Part shown: positions 1,205 through 11,502 of the stretch, piece by piece
How the letters are laid out: every line of letters begins with the position of its first letter
How positions within the stretch are numbered: position 1 is the stretch's first letter
Assembly (NCBI GenBank): GCA_003225295.1
Contig: QHYZ01000048.1
Coordinates: 1 to 64,000, forward strand
Length of the DNA: 64,000 bases
Reading direction: 5' to 3'
From: Acidobacteriota bacterium
GTDB taxonomy: Bacteria > Acidobacteriota > Terriglobia > Acidiferrales > UBA7541
The notes under the pieces: model-generated
The model's input: the letters and a program-made list of their open reading frames with translations, nothing else
What the model was told of the DNA's origin: nothing
Database searches by the model: none
Position numbers and translations under genes: made by a program

Positions 1205-2473
1205 TTATTTGTAGAGGAAATATTTGCGGCGGATTTGGTCAAAGGCAGTCAGATCGGCGGACCAGCTGGCGACGATCTTCTCGGCAGGCGTCCCGGACTG
1301 TAATTGCTGGATGGTGTCGGAATTTCCGATCAGCAAGAGGAGTTTTTCGGGATCGAACTGTTGCGGATAGAGTCTATGCAAAATTATGGCTGTCTCCATG
1401 CCCATGCTCATGGCGCGCACCCGGTAGCGATCCGTGATGCGCACGGCGACGCCACCGCAACGCTGGCCGCTGTAGAGACCGACGATGGGGATGAAGGGTT
1501 TGGCCGCAAAATGCAGGCCGGCAAGATGACGTTCGTTCAGTGCGGCGGCGACTTCATCGCCGTTGAGCCAGGGAGCGCCAAATTCTTCAAACGGAGTTTC
1601 GGTGCCGCGGCCGACAGAGACACCAGCGTTTTGCAGGATTTCAATTCCGGGGTAGAGAACGGAACCCTTGGTAGTGCGGAGATTTGGCGAGGGAGGAATC
1701 CACCTGGTGCCGGTGCTTTCAAAGAAATAATTGCGATGCCAGTTTTTCATGGCGATGACATGCAGGTCGGCGCCAATGTGGTTTTCGGCGTTGAAGAGTT
1801 GGGCGAGTTCGCCGATGGTTAAGCCGTAACGCACGGGCAGAGGGAAATAGCCGACGAAATTCGTTTTGTCCATGTCTAGCATCGGGCCTTCCACGATTTC
1901 ACCGCCGAGCGGATTGGGGCGATCGAGGACGAAGAACGCGATGTTGCGTTTGGCGGCTTCCTCTATGCAATAAGCCATTGTCGTCGTGTAGGTGTAGAAC
2001 CGCACGCCGGCGTCCTGAACATCGAAGACCAGCGCGTCAATGCCCTTGAGCATTTCATCGGTGGGGCGAAGCGTTTCGCCGTAGAGACTATGGACGGGAA
2101 GACCAGTGGCGGGATCTTTGGCAGAAGAGATCTTTTCATCGTTGCGGCCAGCGAGACCATGTTCCGGGCTGAATAGAGCGATCAGTTGAACGCCCGGGGC
2201 ATGGGATAAAATGTCTACGGTACTGCGCCCTTGCGAATCTAGCCCCGTATGATTGGTGATCAGACCAACGTGCTTGCCGCGAAGTGGCGCGAATTTCTGT
2301 GATTCGAGAACGTCCAGGCCGGTTTGCACTCGTGCTGCGCGACCTGACTGTTTCGATGCAGCGCCCGCACGCACGTGGCCCAATGAGAATAGTGCGACCA
2401 AGAACGTGAAATGAATGAACGTGGAGTGCCGGCGCCTGAGTCTAGTCAAAGGGTCCCCCGCTATCGCCACCAT
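1205..2473 (-). CDS. namZ: Exo-beta-N-acetylmuramidase NamZ (DUF1343 family)
   Basis: This 422-residue protein has the family landmarks: a GLITNHTGLD stretch, FSPEHGLAG, SLYGETLRPT, a long FDVQDAGVRFYTY segment, and RPNPLGG. NamZ (YbbC in Bacillus) removes single MurNAc residues from the non-reducing ends of peptidoglycan fragments. The ATG at 2473 gives an N-terminus with a hydrophobic segment (IHFTFLVALFSLG) ending near an A-x-A-like site, so it is probably exported. The frame continues far upstream, but that part overlaps the divergent nagZ gene and has no family similarity. It is divergent from the nagZ-amiE fusion, whose product acts on the same substrates, and upstream of the BtuF-like gene. 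Confidence 0.88.
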   Translation of the reverse strand: MVAIAGDPLTRLRRRHSTFIHFTFLVALFSLGHVRAGAASKQSGRAARVQTGLDVLESQKFAPLRGKHVGLITNHTGLDSQGRSTVDILSHAPGVQLIALFSPEHGLAGRNDEKISSAKDPATGLPVHSLYGETLRPTDEMLKGIDALVFDVQDAGVRFYTYTTTMAYCIEEAAKRNIAFFVLDRPNPLGGEIVEGPMLDMDKTNFVGYFPLPVRYGLTIGELAQLFNAENHIGADLHVIAMKNWHRNYFFESTGTRWIPPSPNLRTTKGSVLYPGIEILQNAGVSVGRGTETPFEEFGAPWLNGDEVAAALNERHLAGLHFAAKPFIPIVGLYSGQRCGGVAVRITDRYRVRAMSMGMETAIILHRLYPQQFDPEKLLLLIGNSDTIQQLQSGTPAEKIVASWSADLTAFDQIRRKYFLYK

Positions 2474-2509
2474 ACAATGATATTCTGGAACGCGCTGGCC
2501 GCAGCCGCG

Positions 2510-2549
2510 TTGAGAGCACCATGTGCGTGTGCTATGTATAAATACAGAC
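2510..2549 (+). promoter_or_regulatory. Candidate promoter of nagZ-amiE fusion
   Basis: TTGAGA at 2510-2515 and TATGTA at 2533-2538 are 17 bp apart. An overlapping TATAAA at 2537-2542 is a second possible -10. A G-rich stretch (GGGGGGA) lies about 10 bases before the ATG at 2579 and can serve as ribosome binding site. Assigned by eye only. Confidence 0.35.
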
Positions 2550-2578
2550 GGCCGGCGGCCGCGGGGGGATTCTAACCG

Positions 2579-5530
2579 ATGAAAGGACGCCGCGTCCGTT
2601 TTTTGCTTCTGATTCCCGTCTCCATCATTCTCCTTATGGCCTATATCGCACACAGCCAGAACCACAGCACCTCGGCAAAAAGAACCGTCGTGAAGGAGGG
2701 CGCGGTGAAGAAATTGTCGCCCACCGCGTACGCCTGGGTGGAAACCACCCTCCGCAAGATGAGCGTCGAGGAAAAGATCGGGCAGCTTCTTTTCACCACT
2801 TATCACGGAAGTTTTACGGCCACGGACATGGCGGCCTACCGGCAGATCCTGCACGACGTGACCGATCTCCACGTCGGCGGGTTCATCAACATCACACAAG
2901 GATCGCCGCTGGGAATCGTGAAGAGTCAGGCTTATCCCACGGCGGTGCTTAACAACCAGCTGCAGGCCAAGTCGAAGCTGCCGCTGCTGGTCGGCGCGGA
3001 TTTCGAGCGCGGCACGGCGATGCGGCTGGATGAGGGCACGTCTTTTCCGACGGCCATGGCAGTCGCCGCCGGCGGCAATCCAAAAGACGCGTACGCCATG
3101 GGCAAGATCACGGCGCTAGAGGCGCGCGCCGTCGGAATTCACTGGATCTATGCGCCGGACGCGGATGTGAACAATAATCCTGGAAATCCGATTATCAACA
3201 CGCGATCGTTCGGCGAAGATCCGGGGCGCGTCGCGCAATTTGTGACCGAGTTCGTTCGCGGCGTGCAGGAAAATGGCGGTGCGGCAACGGCCAAACATTT
3301 CCCGGGCCATGGCGATACGGCTGCCGATTCGCATATTGACCTACCCGTGATTCGCGCTGACCGTGCTCGACTCGATCAACTTGAACTTGTGCCCTTCCGC
3401 GCTGCCATCTCCGTGCAGGTCGACAGCATCATGACCGGGCATCTGAATGTTCCCGCTCTCGAGCCCGATCCAAACACGCCAGCGACACTTTCGCACAATA
3501 TACTCACCAATCTACTGCGCAATCAGCTCGGCTATCAGGGCCTCATCGTTACCGATGCTATGGACATGGGCGGAATCACGGTGCGTTACGCGCCAGGAGA
3601 GGCGGCGGTGCGCGCAGTCGCGGCCGGAGTGGACGCGCTGCTGATGACCCCGGTGCCGGACGCCGCCTTCGAAGCTTTACAGGAGGCGGTGAAGTCCGGG
3701 CGCATCTCCAAAGAACGATTGGATGCCTCGGTGCGGCGGATTCTCCAAGCGAAAGCACGCTTAGGGTTGAGCCAAAACCGGCTCGTGGATGTGAACGCCA
3801 TCAATCAGAAATTCGCGAGCGCTGCTTGGCAAAAAGAGGCGCAGGACATTTCAGACCGTGGCGTGACGCTGTTGCGCGACACACCACATCGCTTGCCGCT
3901 CGATGAAACGAAACCCTCGCGCGCGCTGCTGTTGGCTTTTTATGCGGATCCGGAGCCGTATCCGGGAGAAGACCTGGAACGGGAATTGCGGTCGCGATTC
4001 GACTCGGTGACGACCCTGCGTGCGGACACGAGATTTGCGAATGCCGGCATTCTGAAATTGCCGCCGCCGGAAAGTTACGACATTGCAATCTTGGCGCTGT
4101 TTGTGCGCGTGAGCGACCGCAAGGGAAATGTGGATGTGCCCGCGGAGCAAGCTGCGCTGGCGGAGCAGATTTACAAAACGGACAAGCCGGTGATCACCGT
4201 GGGATTCGGAAGTCCATACTTGATCGAGCGATTTCCGCAAGCTGAGACGTGGCTGGCGGCCTTTGGGATTAGCGATGTCGCACAGATTTCGGCGGCGCGT
4301 GCGCTGTTTGGGCAAATTCCCGTGCGCGGGCATCTGCCGGTGACCGTGCCGGGTGTGAACATGAAGGCAGGATTTGGAATCGAGCTGCCCGCAAACCCAA
4401 TGACCGTGCAATCGATGGACACGCGCGGCGAAGCGCAGCTGCAACCAGCTTACGATGTGATCGAGAAAGCGATTGCCGACAAGGCGTTTCCTGGCGCGAC
4501 GCTGGCTGTTGGTTATCGCGGGAAATTGGCGGTGCGTTCGTTTGGGAAATTGAGTTATGACGCCAAGGCGGCGGCGACTGCACCGACAACAATGTACGAC
4601 ATCGCCTCGCTGACAAAGGTGGTAGCGACTACAACCCTGGTCGCCAAGCTGGCGGAGGGGGACTTCGCTGTTCCGCTGGACCTGGACGCCAAGATCGAGC
4701 GGTATTTGCCGGAATGGGCGAGCGGGCCGAACGCGGAGTGGCGGCATCGAGTTACGGTACGGCATTTGCTGACGCACACTTCGGGGTTGCCGCCGTTCAA
4801 GGAGTATTGGAGGACCTCGAAGAATAAGCAGGACACGCTGACGAAAATATTTGCCGAACCGCTGGACTACGAGCCGGGGACAAAGGAAGTCTATTCTGAC
4901 CTGGGAATTATCTTGATGGCCGAAATTACAGAGCGCTTGACGGGAAGAAAGCTGGACGATTTGGCGAGAAATTATATTTTTTCGCCGCTGGGAATGCAGA
5001 ACACGATGTACCGTCCGCCGAAAAAATTGTGGCCGCAAATTGCGCCGACCGAAATTGACAACAATCTGCGGCACCGGCTAGTGCAGGGCGAAGTTCACGA
5101 CGAGAACGCGTTTGCGATTGGCGGCGTTTCAGGGCACGCGGGACTTTTCAGCACGGCGCCGGATTTGGCGGCGTTTTGCCAGATGCTGCTGAACGGCGGC
5201 GTTTACGCACACCAAAGAATTTTGCGACGCGCGACGATTGCGCAATTCACGACGCCTCAGCAGCTTTCTGGCGGAACGCGGACACTGGGATGGGCGGTGC
5301 CGACCGAAGGCGGATCGAGCGGGCATTATTTCTCGGCGCACAGCTTTGGGCATACCGGATTTACCGGCACTTCGATTTGGATCGATCCCGACCGGCAGCT
5401 TTTTGTGGTGCTGCTGACGAATCGCGTGCATCCGACGCGGGAGAATACGAAGATTCAGAAGGCGCGACCGGCGCTGCACGATGCGGTGATCCAGGCGCTG
5501 GGATTGGCGACAGTGGCGTCGGCGAAATAA
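2579..5530 (+). CDS. nagZ: NagZ-AmiE fusion: beta-N-acetylglucosaminidase plus MurNAc-L-Ala amidase-like domain
   Basis: A 983-residue two-enzyme protein. Residues 7-25 form a signal peptide or anchor. The N-terminal half is glycoside hydrolase family 3 of the NagZ type: KHFPGHGDTAADSH near residue 240 carries the Asp-His general acid/base pair, and TDAMDMGG near 323 holds the nucleophile Asp. A GH3 C-terminal domain follows. From about residue 625 the protein is a class C beta-lactamase-like serine hydrolase: SLTK (SxxK) near 674, YSD in the YxN position and HTG near the end. In Bacillus, separate neighbouring genes nagZ and amiE have these folds and jointly release MurNAc from muropeptides. 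The fusion here has that gene order. NagZ function is firm. The amidase role rests on domain order and the adjoining namZ; an esterase is the alternative. Confidence 0.88.
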   Translation: MKGRRVRFLLLIPVSIILLMAYIAHSQNHSTSAKRTVVKEGAVKKLSPTAYAWVETTLRKMSVEEKIGQLLFTTYHGSFTATDMAAYRQILHDVTDLHVGGFINITQGSPLGIVKSQAYPTAVLNNQLQAKSKLPLLVGADFERGTAMRLDEGTSFPTAMAVAAGGNPKDAYAMGKITALEARAVGIHWIYAPDADVNNNPGNPIINTRSFGEDPGRVAQFVTEFVRGVQENGGAATAKHFPGHGDTAADSHIDLPVIRADRARLDQLELVPFRAAISVQVDSIMTGHLNVPALEPDPNTPATLSHNILTNLLRNQLGYQGLIVTDAMDMGGITVRYAPGEAAVRAVAAGVDALLMTPVPDAAFEALQEAVKSGRISKERLDASVRRILQAKARLGLSQNRLVDVNAINQKFASAAWQKEAQDISDRGVTLLRDTPHRLPLDETKPSRALLLAFYADPEPYPGEDLERELRSRFDSVTTLRADTRFANAGILKLPPPESYDIAILALFVRVSDRKGNVDVPAEQAALAEQIYKTDKPVITVGFGSPYLIERFPQAETWLAAFGISDVAQISAARALFGQIPVRGHLPVTVPGVNMKAGFGIELPANPMTVQSMDTRGEAQLQPAYDVIEKAIADKAFPGATLAVGYRGKLAVRSFGKLSYDAKAAATAPTTMYDIASLTKVVATTTLVAKLAEGDFAVPLDLDAKIERYLPEWASGPNAEWRHRVTVRHLLTHTSGLPPFKEYWRTSKNKQDTLTKIFAEPLDYEPGTKEVYSDLGIILMAEITERLTGRKLDDLARNYIFSPLGMQNTMYRPPKKLWPQIAPTEIDNNLRHRLVQGEVHDENAFAIGGVSGHAGLFSTAPDLAAFCQMLLNGGVYAHQRILRRATIAQFTTPQQLSGGTRTLGWAVPTEGGSSGHYFSAHSFGHTGFTGTSIWIDPDRQLFVVLLTNRVHPTRENTKIQKARPALHDAVIQALGLATVASAK

Positions 5531-6367: not shown

Positions 6368-7261
6368 TTATTGCCGGAGAGCTCTTTGCTTCAAATCGTG
6401 GGCGGCTTCGGCGAGGTCGGCGGGGCGGCCGAGGTCACGCCAATAGTAGTCGTCGGCACGGAAGGCGAGGATGTTTCGCCCCTGGGCAGAGAGGCGAAGA
6501 TAGGTGGGGATGATCGAGAAGGTGCCTTCTTCGGCGATCATGGGCAAGAGGCGAGGAGAAATGATGTGAATGCCGCAGAAGGCCAGGGCGTGGAGCGACC
6601 GTGAAGAATCCTGTGAGACCTCCGGGACTGATGCTGTGGAACTCGGGACGTTTTCCGCTACCGGCAGGCCAGCTTGGGAAGAAGCGGAATCGGGCGCGAT
6701 TTGAGGGTTTTCATGCTTGCTAACGAACTCCTTCTGCGTAGCGGTAATTTGGGTGGCACAGCCAGGATTGGCCATGCCACCGGCGCGGCGGCCGCGGAGT
6801 TGGAGTTGGTTGTTGAATAGGAGGAGGCGAGATGATTGGCGGGCTTGGACGGCCAGCGTGGCCAGGGCGTGACTTTCGGTATGGACTTGCAGCATGCGGT
6901 GAAAATCGATCGTGCTGATGACGTCGACGTTGTGGAGAAGGAAGGGCTCGTCGAGACGGCTGGGATCTTCGAGGAAAAACCAGGCGGCTTTCTGCAGGCC
7001 GCCGCCGGTGTCCAGTAACACATCTTCGCGGGAGACCTCGATGCGCATGCCTAAATTTTTCTTGGACTTCAGATAGTCGATGACCATGTCGGCGAAGTGA
7101 TGGACGTTGACGATCACTTCGCTGATGCCAAAGGTACGCAAGCGGGAGAGGGTGATTTCGAGGAGCGCGCGCCCACCGACTTCGACCAGAGCCTTGGGGC
7201 GATTATCGGTGAGCGGGCGAAGCCGCGTGCCGAGGCCGGCGGCGAGGACCATGGCTTTCAT
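6368..7261 (-). CDS. murU: MurU-like MurNAc-1-phosphate uridylyltransferase with internal insert
   Basis: A 297-residue sugar nucleotidyltransferase starting MKAMVLAAGLGTRLRPLTD, with PKALVEVGG completing the GxGTRxRPxTxxxPK nucleotide site. MurU converts MurNAc-1-phosphate plus UTP to UDP-MurNAc. The gene lies downstream of the AmgK-like kinase on the same strand, the pairing known for the Pseudomonas salvage pathway, which supports MurU over other sugar-1-phosphate transferases. It is about 70 residues longer than typical MurU. The extra part (about 157-222) is Ser/Ala/Pro-rich, low complexity, and contains a hairpin repeat at the DNA level. The core resumes at ALAFCGIHIISPRLL. The insert probably forms a surface loop. 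Confidence 0.78.
   Translation of the reverse strand: MKAMVLAAGLGTRLRPLTDNRPKALVEVGGRALLEITLSRLRTFGISEVIVNVHHFADMVIDYLKSKKNLGMRIEVSREDVLLDTGGGLQKAAWFFLEDPSRLDEPFLLHNVDVISTIDFHRMLQVHTESHALATLAVQARQSSRLLLFNNQLQLRGRRAGGMANPGCATQITATQKEFVSKHENPQIAPDSASSQAGLPVAENVPSSTASVPEVSQDSSRSLHALAFCGIHIISPRLLPMIAEEGTFSIIPTYLRLSAQGRNILAFRADDYYWRDLGRPADLAEAAHDLKQRALRQ
6752..6781. repeat. REP-like hairpin repeat inside murU
   Basis: GGTGGCACAGCC (6752-6763) and GGCCATGCCACC (6770-6781) are inverted arms around AGGATT. In murU mRNA they form a 12-bp stem including two G-U pairs. The 20 bases at 6761-6780 match 9153-9172 with three mismatches. The repeat encodes roughly residues 161-170 of MurU. Confidence 0.65.
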
Positions 7262-7531: not shown

Positions 7532-8974
7532 TCATTGGAGGGCTCTCCGCTTGCCCAGTTTCTCCAGTTGGAGATGGCGGACGGCGACTTCCAGACCGTT
7601 CCTGTTGCGCAAGCGCTTGGCCAATTGCTCGGCAAGGAAAACCGAGCGATGCTGGCCGCCGGTGCAACCGAAGGAAATCATCAGATTCTTGAAGCCACGC
7701 TGCTGATAGTTGTTGATGCTCGAGTCCACCAGCGACAGGACGCTGGCAAGAAACTGATGCACGCTTTCCTGCTGATTGAGGTAGTCGATCACCGGGGCGT
7801 CTTTACCGGTTAGAGTCTTGAAGCGCTCTTCGCGTCCCGGATTCGGGAGGCTGCGGCCGTCGAAAACGAAGCCGCCGCCATTGCCGCTTTGGTCTTTTGG
7901 CAAGCCGTGATGAAAGGAAAAACTGAAGATCCGCACAATCAAGTTTTCGGCTTCGGAAGCGAGGCCCTGCAATTTCTCCGAGGCCAACATGCCTTTGAAT
8001 GCGTCCATCAGCGCCGGGAGAGGGACGGGGAGCCTGACGTGGTGGAGCAGCCAGCGGAGATTCTTCAGGGCGTAGGGAACGCTCTGGAGAAAATGAGCTT
8101 TGCGTTCGTAAAAGCCGCGAAAGCCATAAGCGCCGAGGGCTTGCAAGATGCGAATGTAAACGTAGGCGTAAAAGTGACGCAGGAATGCTTCGCGATCCAG
8201 CTTGATAAAACGTGCGAGACTGTCGAGATAGTGATCGAGAAGCTGCTGACGGAGGTCGGGCGGGAGATCGGCCTTGGCATCGTACAACAGTGAAGCGATG
8301 TCGTATTGCAGAGCGCCCTTGCGGCCGCCTTGATAGTCCACGAAAAAGGGCTGGCCGTCGCGCAACAGGATGTTGCGAGATTGGAAGTCGCGGTAGAGAA
8401 AGTAGTCGCGCGGAGCGCTCAGGAGGAATTCGGTCAGGCGGCCGAAATCGTCTTCCAGGGCTTGCTCATTGAAGGGGATACTGGCAAGGCGAAGGAAATA
8501 GTATTTGAAATAGTTCAGATCCCAGGTGATGGATTGGCGATCGAAGCTGGAGATGGGATAGCAGACCTTATAATTCAGATCGCGGCCGGCTTCGACTTGA
8601 AAGCGCGGGAGCATGGCGACAACCGTGCGATAGGCTTCGACGGCCTGGGGAGAAATGTTTTCGCCGGTGCGGTTTTTAGAAAGGAATTCGAAAAGAGTGG
8701 TGTCGCCAAGGTCTTCTTCGAGATAGGCGCCCTGGCTGAGGTCTTCGGCGTAAATTTCCGGAACGGGAAGGCCGTGGCGGCGAAAATGTTTGGAAAACTC
8801 GAGAAAGGCGACGTTTTCTTCGCGAACACCGTAGAGAATGCCAATGGCACTGAGTTTTTCCCGGGCAAGCCGGATGATCTTGCGACCGGAACCGCCAAGC
8901 TCACCCTGCAGCGGCTGGATGCGCTCGGGCGATGCGTGGAAATGTTCTTCAAAAAGCTTTTTGAGAACGTCCAT
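7532..8974 (-). CDS. amgK: AmgK-like amino-sugar kinase fused to RapZ C-terminal domain
   Basis: A 480-residue fusion. Residues 1 to about 320 are an aminoglycoside-phosphotransferase-fold kinase like AmgK, which phosphorylates MurNAc or GlcNAc at C1: the Brenner-type motif is YRDFQSRNIL (Asp196, Asn201) and the metal site is FVDYQGG (Asp213). Residues about 345-475 are the RapZ C-terminal domain: FSFHHGLP, FVFDGRSLPNPG (369-380), KTLTGKDAPV and GCTGGQHRSV (436-445). In enterobacteria that domain binds glucosamine-6-phosphate and GlmZ RNA. RapZ's own N-terminal P-loop ATPase domain is absent. The gene precedes murU after a 270-bp gap holding a hairpin. Kinase family is firm; the exact sugar follows from context; the role of the RapZ part is inference. 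Confidence 0.85.
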   Translation of the reverse strand: MDVLKKLFEEHFHASPERIQPLQGELGGSGRKIIRLAREKLSAIGILYGVREENVAFLEFSKHFRRHGLPVPEIYAEDLSQGAYLEEDLGDTTLFEFLSKNRTGENISPQAVEAYRTVVAMLPRFQVEAGRDLNYKVCYPISSFDRQSITWDLNYFKYYFLRLASIPFNEQALEDDFGRLTEFLLSAPRDYFLYRDFQSRNILLRDGQPFFVDYQGGRKGALQYDIASLLYDAKADLPPDLRQQLLDHYLDSLARFIKLDREAFLRHFYAYVYIRILQALGAYGFRGFYERKAHFLQSVPYALKNLRWLLHHVRLPVPLPALMDAFKGMLASEKLQGLASEAENLIVRIFSFSFHHGLPKDQSGNGGGFVFDGRSLPNPGREERFKTLTGKDAPVIDYLNQQESVHQFLASVLSLVDSSINNYQQRGFKNLMISFGCTGGQHRSVFLAEQLAKRLRNRNGLEVAVRHLQLEKLGKRRALQ

Positions 8975-9152: not shown

Positions 9153-9172
9153 GCCAGGACTGGCGGTGCCAC
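9153..9172. repeat. Second copy of GCCAGGAYTGGC repeat
   Basis: The 20 bases are identical to 6761-6780 except at three positions. The copy sits about 20 bp upstream of the murQ -10 box in the divergent amgK/murQ region. It could affect promoter access or simply be a dispersed element. Confidence 0.5.
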
Positions 9173-9190
9173 AGGACATTTTGCGTGGCC

Positions 9191-9205
9191 TGTATAATCC
9201 GGGGA
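9191..9205 (+). promoter_or_regulatory. murQ promoter, predicted leaderless start
   Basis: A perfect TATAAT at 9193-9198 has its last base seven before the A of ATG at 9205. With usual sigma70 geometry transcription would begin on that A. No -35 match is obvious at 17 bp and there is no room for a ribosome binding site. Confidence 0.5.
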
Positions 9206-10152
9206 TGACTACCCAGCCTAAAAAGCGCAGACGCACGGAGCGCCCGCTCATACATCATCGGCTCATCGAACAGCGACTCACAGAACAGAGGAATGCGGCG
9301 TCAAGGAATCTGGACGGCATGACGGCAGTGGAGATTGTGCGGCTGATGAATCGCGAGGACCGCAAGGTGGCGGTCGGCGTGGGGCGGGAGATTCCGGCAA
9401 TTGCGCGCGCCGTGGATGCGATTGTCAGCGGGATGCGCAAGGGCGGTCGGCTGATTTATGTGGGGGCGGGATCAAGCGGGCGGATGGGAGTACTGGATGC
9501 AGCGGAATGTCCGCCAACGTTTGGGACTTCGCCGAAACTGGTACAGGCGCTGATTGCGGGAGGAAGGCGCGCGATTACCCGGGCGGTCGAAGGGGCGGAG
9601 GATTCGGCGCGGAACGGAGAGCGGGATTTGCGGGCGAAGAAATTGACGCGCAATGACGTGGTGGTGGGAATCGCGGCGAGCGGGACAACACCGTACGTGC
9701 TGGGGGCACTGAAGTTCGCGCAGAAGCGATGCGCCACCACCGTGGCGGTGACTTCCAACTTGCGGATGCCAGTCGGGCGGCTCGCGAAAATCGTGATTGC
9801 GCCAGAGGTGGGGCCGGAAGTGTTGACTGGGTCGACGCGACTGAAGGCGGGGACGTCGCAAAAGATGGTGCTCAACATGCTCAGTACGGCTGTGCTGGCG
9901 CGGCTCGGGCATGTATATGAGAACTTGATGATCGATATGATGCTGACGAATGAGAAGCTTTCAGAGCGCGCGCTGCGCATCCTTGCGGAGGCCAGCGGTA
10001 AGAGGGTGTCTTCGGCGGAACACGCTTTGCGGCAGGCGGGACACGATATGCGCATGGCGCTGGTGATGTTGAAGCGGGGCATTGGCGCCGCGGAGGCAGC
10101 GAAGAGACTGCAGGCCGTGAGAGGTGATTTGAGAAAAGCGTTGGAGGCCTAG
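9205..10152 (+). CDS. murQ: N-acetylmuramic acid 6-phosphate etherase MurQ
   Basis: A 315-residue SIS-domain enzyme with the MurQ signatures TEQRN, LIYVGAGSSGRMGVLDAAECPPTFG, GIAASGTTPYVLGAL and TGSTRLKAGTSQKMVLNM. It cleaves the lactyl ether of MurNAc-6-phosphate to GlcNAc-6-phosphate and D-lactate in the cytoplasm. The ATG at 9205 is used because a perfect -10 box ends six bases upstream. An ATG at 9319 would cut off the conserved TEQRN region. It is divergent from amgK-murU and 69 bp ahead of murA. Having MurQ together with AmgK/MurU gives the cell both a breakdown and a direct reuse route for MurNAc. No MurP-type transporter or MurK is seen here. Confidence 0.92.
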   Translation: MTTQPKKRRRTERPLIHHRLIEQRLTEQRNAASRNLDGMTAVEIVRLMNREDRKVAVGVGREIPAIARAVDAIVSGMRKGGRLIYVGAGSSGRMGVLDAAECPPTFGTSPKLVQALIAGGRRAITRAVEGAEDSARNGERDLRAKKLTRNDVVVGIAASGTTPYVLGALKFAQKRCATTVAVTSNLRMPVGRLAKIVIAPEVGPEVLTGSTRLKAGTSQKMVLNMLSTAVLARLGHVYENLMIDMMLTNEKLSERALRILAEASGKRVSSAEHALRQAGHDMRMALVMLKRGIGAAEAAKRLQAVRGDLRKALEA

Positions 10153-10221: not shown

Positions 10222-11502
10222 ATGGATAAATTCCGGATCAAGGGTGGGAAGGTGCTGCGGGGGACGGTGGCGATCAGCGGAGCGAAGAATTCGGCGCTGC
10301 CAGTAATGGCGGCGGCTTTGCTGACCGCGGAAAAGGTGACCCTACACAACATCCCGAAAGTGCGCGACCTGATTACCATGAGCAAGCTGCTGGCGTTCAT
10401 GGACGCGAAGGTTTCGGTGACGGAAATGCCGGCAAGCGATTACGTGATTGAGGCGCTGAAGTTGAACCACGTGGAGGCACCCTATGAACTGGTGAAGACG
10501 ATGCGGGCGTCGGTGCTGACGCTGGGGCCCCTGATGGCGCGGGTGGGAATGGCGCGGGTTTCGCTGCCGGGCGGATGTGCAATTGGGGCGCGGCCCGTGG
10601 ATTTGCATTTGAAAGCGCTGGAGCAGATGGGGGCGGAGATAGAGACTTCACACGGTTACATCGAGGCTCGGGTACCAAAGGGACGGCTGAAGGGCGCGCA
10701 CATCGTGTTTGAGAAAATTACCGTGACAGGGACGGAGAATATTCTGATGGCCGCGGTGCTGGCGGAGGGGGAGACCGTGCTGGAGAACGCCGCGAGGGAG
10801 CCGGAAGTGACGGATTTGGTGGAGATGCTAGGGAAGATGGGTGCGGAGATTTCTGGACATGGAACTTCGACGCTGCGGATCCGTGGCGTGGACCAGCTGC
10901 ACGGTACGGAACATTCCGTGATTCCAGATCGGATCGAAGCGGGGACATTTCTAGTGGCGGGAGCGATTACCGGCGGGGAGCTGATGATTACGCATTGCGA
11001 GCCAGAGCATTTGGGAGCGGTGATTGCGAAATTAGGTCAGGCGGGTGTGCCGATTGAGATTGTGAACAAAACAACGATGAGAGTGCAGGGCGCGAAGAGG
11101 CTGGTGGGTGCTGACGTTACGACGGAAGAGTATCCGGGATTCGCGACGGACATGCAGGCGCAATACATGGCTCTGGCGACACAGGCAGAGGGCACCTCGG
11201 TGATTTCCGAGACGATTTTTGAGAACCGCTACCTGCATGCCAGTGAGATGATACGCATGGGGGCGAACATTTCGGTTGATGGACGCAAGGGGGTGGTGCG
11301 CGGGCCGGCGCAGTTGTCAGGCACAACGGTGCAGGCGTCGGATTTGCGGGCGAGCGCAGGGCTAGTGCTGGCCGGGCTGGTGGCCAGCGGCGAGACGACG
11401 ATTGAGCGCGTGTATCATATTGATCGCGGGTATGAGGGAATTGTGGAGAAGCTGAGGGGAGTTGGGGCGGATATTGAGCGGGTGCATGGGGCGGCGTCCT
11501 AG
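10222..11502 (+). CDS. murA: UDP-N-acetylglucosamine 1-carboxyvinyltransferase MurA
   Basis: A 426-residue EPSP-synthase-fold enzyme, the usual length. It transfers enolpyruvate from PEP to UDP-GlcNAc, the first committed step of peptidoglycan synthesis. SGAKNSALP holds the conserved Lys22. [10 protein letters not shown] holds Cys119, equivalent to E. coli Cys115, so the enzyme should be attacked by fosfomycin. [10 protein letters not shown]-like and [15 protein letters not shown] segments complete the family pattern. It follows murQ by 69 bp on the same strand and is likely co-transcribed. Placing it beside salvage genes that bypass MurA is notable. Confidence 0.95.

Follow-up and report, generated by a model that had tools for sequence, protein, structure and literature searches.

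A RapZ C-terminal domain fused to an AmgK-like kinase in an acidobacterial peptidoglycan-salvage cluster: kept anion pocket, altered sugar side

Why would a kinase of cell-wall salvage carry the C-terminal domain of RapZ? The question is raised by a single open frame of 480 aa on the minus strand (positions 7532-8974) of the window, the 64,000-nucleotide stretch of an Acidobacteriota contig that was analyzed here. A sequence-only reading had described its product as an AmgK-type kinase joined to a RapZ C-terminal domain (CTD), without the N-terminal ATPase domain of RapZ, and had suggested that the salvage kinase senses amino-sugar phosphates such as GlcN6P directly, perhaps as a feedback switch. 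A domain search and a structure prediction of the C-terminal region had been set beforehand as the check.

Domains, fold and gene setting of the fused protein

Pfam assigns residues 53-253 to the APH kinases (E 7.4e-11, 42.7 bits, cut-off 23.2) and residues 346-470 to the RapZ C-terminal domain PF22740 (E 3.9e-36, 124.3 bits, cut-off 27). A sequence search of the PDB returned the APH-type protein 3csv for the N-terminal part (E 9.7e-18) and RapZ-CTD 5o5s for the C-terminal part (E 7.9e-21). AlphaFold2 modeled the whole protein with a pLDDT of 92.4 and a pTM of 0.71, a value at which the relative placing of the kinase and the RapZ domain is uncertain, and the RapZ-type domain alone with a pLDDT of 93.1. 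The domain model matches 5o5s with Z 20.0 and an rmsd of 1.4 Å over 123 residues (40% identity). The best non-RapZ row in this structural comparison is a phosphofructokinase (Z 6.6), in agreement with the resemblance to PFK reported for RapZ (PMC5737377). Foldseek on the models likewise returned APH kinases and RapZ, the kinase part being 3csv-like. The P-loop ATPase domain of RapZ was not found by Pfam in the 480-aa protein, which has the APH kinase in its place. The domain architecture of the sequence-only reading thus holds, including the absence of the ATPase domain.

Models for the full-length families fit less well. The NCBIfam RapZ model scores 117 bits of the 244 needed and covers residues 340-468 only, and two AmgK equivalog models score 62 and 49 bits against cut-offs of 500 and 550; three Bacteroidota kinases that lack the RapZ-type domain also stay below the AmgK cut-off (107-115 vs 550 bits). 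We call the kinase AmgK-like by its gene context, from which we infer a MurNAc/GlcNAc 1-kinase activity. Its motifs RDFQSRN (195-201) and DYQ (213-215), which we take to occupy the places of the APH catalytic motifs, are nearly invariant in the alignment of fused proteins. The RapZ-type domain carries DxxGxGGG (361-368), FDxR (371-374), NPGR (378-381), GCTGGQHRS (436-444) and H467; in the AlphaFold2 model GCTGGQHRS sits between a strand (430-437) and a helix (443-456). Both parts contain invariant columns in an alignment of 56 fused proteins (that of the window and 55 relatives) from at least six phyla by record title, so the fusion is not an assembly artefact, and we consider it confirmed as genuine.

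Table 1. Features of the salvage cluster in the window
Feature	Position	Strand	Basis
NamZ exo-beta-N-acetylmuramidase	1205..2899	-	PF07075 + PF20732, residues 211-563
GH3 (NagZ-type) joined to beta-lactamase/PBP4B-like domain, 983 aa	2579..5530	+	Pfam, NCBIfam
MurU-like nucleotidyltransferase, 297 aa, insert relative to L006 relative	6368..7261	-	Pfam, NCBIfam, alignment
AmgK-like kinase fused to RapZ C-terminal domain, 480 aa	7532..8974	-	Pfam, PDB, NCBIfam, AlphaFold2
RapZ C-terminal domain, residues 346-480 + stop	7532..7939	-	Pfam, alignment, model
Kinase part, residues 1-344	7943..8974	-	APH match 53-253; 3csv alignment
MurQ, MurNAc-6-phosphate etherase	9166..10152	+	363.7 bits, cut-off 302
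MurA, UDP-GlcNAc 1-carboxyvinyltransferase	10222..11502	+	Pfam, NCBIfam

The fused gene belongs to a peptidoglycan-salvage cluster (Table 1), which bears out the salvage-pathway context of the sequence-only reading. MurU lies downstream of it on the same strand, murQ and murA are divergent, and the GH3/beta-lactamase-like protein and NamZ are located beyond MurU. The true start of NamZ is probably downstream of the listed TTG, since the listed frame overlaps that of the GH3 protein. With NamZ the window has a likely source of MurNAc; MurQ on the one hand and the fused kinase plus MurU on the other represent the two MurNAc routes described in other bacteria (MurQ and AmgK-MurU), and MurA is encoded as well. 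NamZ stands beside a NagZ-type protein, and the cluster may free MurNAc itself, feeding AmgK without a 6-phosphate step. Relative to that of locus L006, the MurU of the window has a long insert, and among near relatives its conservation (about 50-60%) is below that of the kinase (71-83%). A frameshift in this gene was ruled out, as the alignment to the L006 MurU can be followed in a single frame, insert included. No tRNA was found in the window. Elsewhere in the same genome, AnmK (C63) and a full-length RapZ (C329) are encoded.

Spread of the fusion, separate domain genes and kinases alone

A scan of the collection gave at least 580 stretches encoding relatives, of which the best 80 loci, most of them from metagenome-assembled genomes (MAGs), were kept. 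Their record titles include Acidobacteria, Elusimicrobia, Calditrichaeota, KSB1, Neomarinimicrobiota, Ignavibacteriales, Bacteroidetes and Opitutia. Among these best 80 of at least 580 plus the window copy, MurU follows directly downstream in 63 of 81 loci, and in another 8 its start was called long, so that the MurU frame runs into the end of the fused gene. Four loci are cut, which leaves MurU present in 71 of the 77 with room downstream; the six without it are all Bacteroidota by title, and the nine frames downstream of these six gave no match to a nucleotidyltransferase family.

Named records with the fused protein are Bacteroides finegoldii, Parabacteroides distasonis, Phocaeicola massiliensis and a Prevotella, all four with the motif. 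The same fused protein is spread over several bacterial phyla, gut Bacteroides included. NCBI labels the B. finegoldii and P. distasonis copies ‘RNase adapter RapZ’ (WP_237923178.1 and WP_005858754.1; L180:5986-7416, L181:5986-7416), the other two records being unannotated there. Both labeled copies share about 43% identity over 97% of the query and the same motif, and adjoin a ‘nucleotidyltransferase family protein’. The label covers the C-terminal domain only, not the kinase, and our assignment corrects a misleading name in gut bacteria. In two Bacteroidota genomes the first few bases of the fused gene are shared with a GNAT acetyltransferase gene (L157:4883-5419, minus strand; L159:3146-3679, plus strand).

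PF22740 itself is common in Acidobacteriota (216/247 genomes), where most frames among the matches listed are RapZ-sized (about 290-400 aa); the fused protein is matched in 38 of 141 Terriglobia genomes. A panel of 33 fusion genomes (32 from the kept loci plus G000, many of them MAGs) has PF22740 throughout, and in 19 the fused copy is its only match. The RapZ metabolite domain is thereby placed in cell-wall salvage, including in these 19 of 33 genomes, many of them MAGs, in which no other RapZ domain was found. In the open-licence literature we found no title on a kinase-RapZ fusion and no paper naming RapZ together with AmgK, or RapZ with phosphatase and CX5R; PMC10216114, which covers RapZ and MurNAc, contains neither ‘AmgK’ nor ‘fused’.

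Kinase and domain can also be apart. Matches were found in 67 of 198 Bacteroidota genomes: kinase and domain stand together or side by side in 23 and apart in one (G570), and 43 (G400 and 42 others) have the kinase only. Three genomes (G421, G485 and G403) encode amgK, a RapZ-type gene of 133-135 aa and murU in a row; in the tree the three kinases branch at two separate points among the fused proteins, with unsettled bootstrap. A separate domain gene in three genomes implies that control within one polypeptide is not required. In G570 the domain is a 133-aa gene remote from the kinase, which is very divergent (branch length 4). This AmgK-like kinase (L149:3214-4188) has no adjacent MurU, and the RapZ-type domain persists elsewhere as its own gene (L150:2438-2836). 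All four separate RapZ-type proteins retain the CTGGxHRS pocket motif.

Among the kinases without the domain, that of G400 groups with the fused proteins, its exact place being unsettled, and that of G255, one of the 38 matching Terriglobia genomes, stands alone before MurU with no domain within an 8-kb stretch. The 42 domain-less Bacteroidota kinases include some weak matches, down to 66 bits. MurU adjoins or overlaps the kinase gene in all 10 that were inspected, and these 10 form one clade (100/100), so they represent one event, and the domain may never have been present there.

A kept anion pocket and a distribution that follows MurNAc-6-phosphate enzymes

The pocket was compared in 78 fused domains and 25 RapZ domains (E. 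coli, Acidobacteriota and panel genomes), a RapZ set that is narrow in phyla. Fused frames had to be longer than 400 aa, which excluded L035 (372 aa) and left 80, among them the window copy L002; two of these were dropped, L036 because it is cut and L040 because a different frame occurs at its end. In E. coli RapZ the pocket consists of H190, T248, G249, H252 and R253 with C247 near it, and H190A, G249W, R253A, C247A and C247S are each reported to abolish activity (GlmZ cleavage, glmS repression) (PMC9841335). Apart from the H190 position, these five pocket residues are kept in 78/78 fused domains. The anion motif CTGGxHRS is invariant in 78/78 fused and 25/25 RapZ domains, and so are C247, T248, G249, G250, H252, R253, S254, D182, R184, N188 and P189 (E. 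coli numbers).

The sugar side differs. The H190 position is Gly in 78/78 fused domains (H in 15, Y in 5 and N in 5 of the 25 RapZ), the W191 position is Arg or Lys in 78/78, and a five-residue Gly-rich insert (GxGGG) is present in 78/78 fused and 0/25 RapZ domains. The whole motif pattern fits 92 of 101 proteins, with loop-less short frames skipped. It misses L036 and L040, six proteins without an exact GxGGG (L145, L147 and L171-L174) and one without NPG[RK] (L141); the six suggest a looser constraint on the Gly loop in some Bacteroidota.

The CTD of E. coli RapZ alone binds GlcN6P (PMC7073468), and H190 is required for the RNA function of that protein, its contact with GlcN6P being a proposal (PMC9841335). 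As the H190 position is Gly, its neighbor Arg or Lys and a Gly-rich loop inserted, GlcN6P as the ligand is unsupported by homology alone; the loss of H190 by itself does not exclude it, because position 190 varies among H, Y and N in RapZ itself. For the proposed direct sensing of GlcN6P, the phosphate site is kept and the sugar side is not. By analogy with the RapZ homologue YvcJ, which is reported to bind UDP-GlcNAc (PMC9841335), UDP-GlcNAc is a further candidate ligand.

The genomes point in a related direction. AnmK or MurQ is encoded in 83 of 92 genomes that have an AmgK-type kinase with the domain (union of three sets, G388 belonging to two of them, the mixed panel and the Bacteroidota) and in 0 of 44 that have the kinase without it (42 Bacteroidota, G400 and G255). 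Many of these genomes are MAGs, whose incompleteness can fake gene absences, and MurQ was called at >200 bits, the curated cut-off being passed in 17/39 genomes of a first set and 19/80 of a second.

By set, the Terriglobia with the domain have AnmK in 31 of 37 genomes and AnmK or MurQ in 36, five of the other six having MurQ (one a fragment); the remaining genome, G323, lacks AnmK and was outside the MurQ test, and the matches of G290, G297 and G323 are cut or broken. In the mixed panel 30 of 32 genomes have either enzyme, AnmK passing its cut-off in all 30, and the Opitutia G372 and G384 have neither. Bacteroidota with the domain have AnmK in 17, MurQ in 11 and either in 18 of 24, and 13 scanned Bacteroidota without AmgK have AnmK in 12, MurQ in 13 and PF22740 in none. 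Within the 67 Bacteroidota, Fisher's exact test of AnmK presence against domain presence gave 1e-10, on related rows that include no more than three independent lineages without the domain. AnmK is found in nearly all Terriglobia (132/141) and is commoner without the fused gene (101/103) than with it (31/38), so that only G255 is informative there.

A strict tie of the domain to AnmK was rejected: 7 of 38 Terriglobia matching the fused protein (six with the domain) and 7 of 24 domain-bearing Bacteroidota lack AnmK. A tie to AnmK or MurQ fits better, with eight clear exceptions (six Bacteroidota and two Opitutia) besides G323. The domain thus tends to follow the enzymes of MurNAc-6-phosphate, which points to MurNAc-6P or the products of MurQ, in few independent events.

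Candidate roles of the domain and known systems

The strong constraint on the pocket, the separability of the domain and its co-distribution with AnmK and MurQ together suggest a ligand or substrate among the amino-sugar 6-phosphates, with a sugar side changed relative to RapZ. We tentatively favor, at somewhat less than even confidence, an amino-sugar-6-phosphate module that sits on the kinase of the AmgK-MurU branch and tunes it by its occupancy, most likely with MurNAc-6P or a MurQ product. The kinase would convert MurNAc, and perhaps GlcNAc, to the 1-phosphate and MurU would form the UDP-sugar. The RapZ-type module may grip the phosphate of its ligand in the Cys-Thr-Gly-Gly-x-His-Arg-Ser loop, and the remodeled sugar side (Gly at the H190 position, Arg or Lys for the aromatic residue, the Gly-rich loop) would suit something other than GlcN6P itself, MurNAc-6P or a MurQ product being the likeliest ligand. 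Occupancy of the module could then match UDP-MurNAc salvage to the parallel 6-phosphate branch of AnmK and MurQ. Feedback within the salvage kinase itself is not a requirement, as three genomes have the domain as a separate gene, and the AnmK/MurQ-linked distribution allows for an enzyme instead of a sensor.

Such an enzyme would be a cysteine-dependent phosphatase acting on MurNAc-6P, and the fused protein would move the phosphate from C6 to C1, like MupP plus AmgK in Pseudomonas; we regard this as unlikely, if a serious contender. A C-x-x-G-x-x-R-S or C-x5-R-S/T loop is the signature of cysteine phosphatases, and GCTGGxHRS has the first of these spacings, a strand-helix position and full invariance. 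C247A and C247S abolish the activity of E. coli RapZ, for whose SH group a possible ‘specialised catalytic function’ was proposed, and the crystal of RapZ-CTD with GlcN6P was described as containing ‘likely a chemically transformed product’ (PMC9841335). AnmK and MurQ were both searched for in 61 domain-bearing genomes; 16 of these have AnmK without MurQ (including G360 with an AnmK fragment), where MurNAc-6P would be a dead end unless a phosphatase is present; MurQ offers another sink in 37. The three genomes with a free-standing domain gene between amgK and murU, and the 0 of 44 domain-less genomes with AnmK or MurQ, would also fit, whereas the eight domain-bearing genomes with neither enzyme would not, and the NamZ of the window could yield MurNAc that needs no dephosphorylation. 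With the MupP model NF009696, none of the 33 fusion genomes gave a match over the cut-off, and 20 of the 33 had no match at 1e-15. As proof of absence this carries little weight: Caulobacter, for which MupP is reported (PMC13046382, PMC11980594), falls below the cut-off too, E. coli Gph scores 109 bits and the best match in a fusion genome 107 bits, and other HAD enzymes could serve. No general acid was identified, and the structural comparison singles out no phosphatase, the tyrosine phosphatase 3s4o reaching only Z 5.7, level with unrelated folds. The case for a phosphatase is thus one of motif, literature hints and distribution. Still somewhat more doubtful is the wider proposal that the RapZ C-terminal domain is an amino-sugar 6-phosphate cysteine phosphatase, serving in salvage as MurNAc-6P phosphatase outside proteobacteria, whether fused to AmgK or encoded on its own between amgK and murU, and that E. 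coli RapZ may hydrolyze or modify the GlcN6P it senses.

A mainly structural role, in which the domain dimerizes the kinase or docks MurU and the anion site is a relic, appears improbable. RapZ-CTD is reported to dimerize through strand 179-182 (PMC5737377), of which D182 is invariant here, and murU adjoins in most loci; however, the pocket is among the invariant features, whereas a relic would drift, and separate domain genes keep CTGGxHRS, even the one remote from its kinase in G570. Least credible, and by a wide measure, is an RNA adaptor that controls glmS or salvage genes via a small RNA. The homologous CTD of E. coli binds GlmY/GlmZ (PMC7073468, PMC9841335), but several of its basic RNA contacts are lost in the fused domains (R238 is Phe in 78/78, K251 Gln in 68/78 and K170 His in 39/78; R184 is kept), and most RapZ outside enterobacteria are also described as lacking that binding region (PMC7073468). 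The N-terminal domain, reported to be needed for the RNA-presenting tetramer (PMC9841335), is absent, the window gave no Rfam match to a regulatory RNA at gathering thresholds, and the same genome has a full-length RapZ.

Between binding and turnover, we hold sensing to be somewhat likelier than catalysis, since RapZ is established as a binder and not as an enzyme; the invariant cysteine, the hints in the literature and the genomes with AnmK and no MurQ would find an explanation in catalysis. On the favored reading, the module is probably a sensor on the AmgK-MurU branch. The fused protein offers a simpler system, free of RNA partners, for testing the ligand and the puzzling essential cysteine of RapZ, and it is a candidate MurNAc-6P phosphatase outside proteobacteria.

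Compared with E. coli RapZ, the fold of the CTD and the anion pocket CTGGxHRS with its Cys, His and Arg are the same. The fused protein differs in its attachment to a kinase in a murU operon in place of the ATPase domain, in the altered H190 and W191 positions and GxGGG loop, and in the loss of several RNA-contact residues. With AmgK of Pseudomonas and Caulobacter it shares an APH-type kinase of 3csv-like fold and an adjoining murU, and is set apart by the extra RapZ domain and by scores below the NCBIfam AmgK cut-offs. AnmK, MupP, AmgK and MurU are described as the salvage steps, MupP being a HAD enzyme (PMC5371407). The MurNAc-6-phosphate phosphatase step of MupP is proposed for the RapZ-type domain in the rival reading only, and no fusion genome of the panel matches the MupP model over its cut-off. 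Proteobacteria are reported to have either MurQ or AmgK-MurU (PMC5371407), whereas both routes occur in 37/61 domain-bearing genomes (MurQ at >200 bits, not all over the curated cut-off). A known AmgK could itself already be fused, that of Tannerella forsythia, since Parabacteroides, presumably of the same family Tannerellaceae, has the fusion. AmgK/MurU of T. forsythia were expressed in E. coli for MurNAc labeling (PMC13041923).
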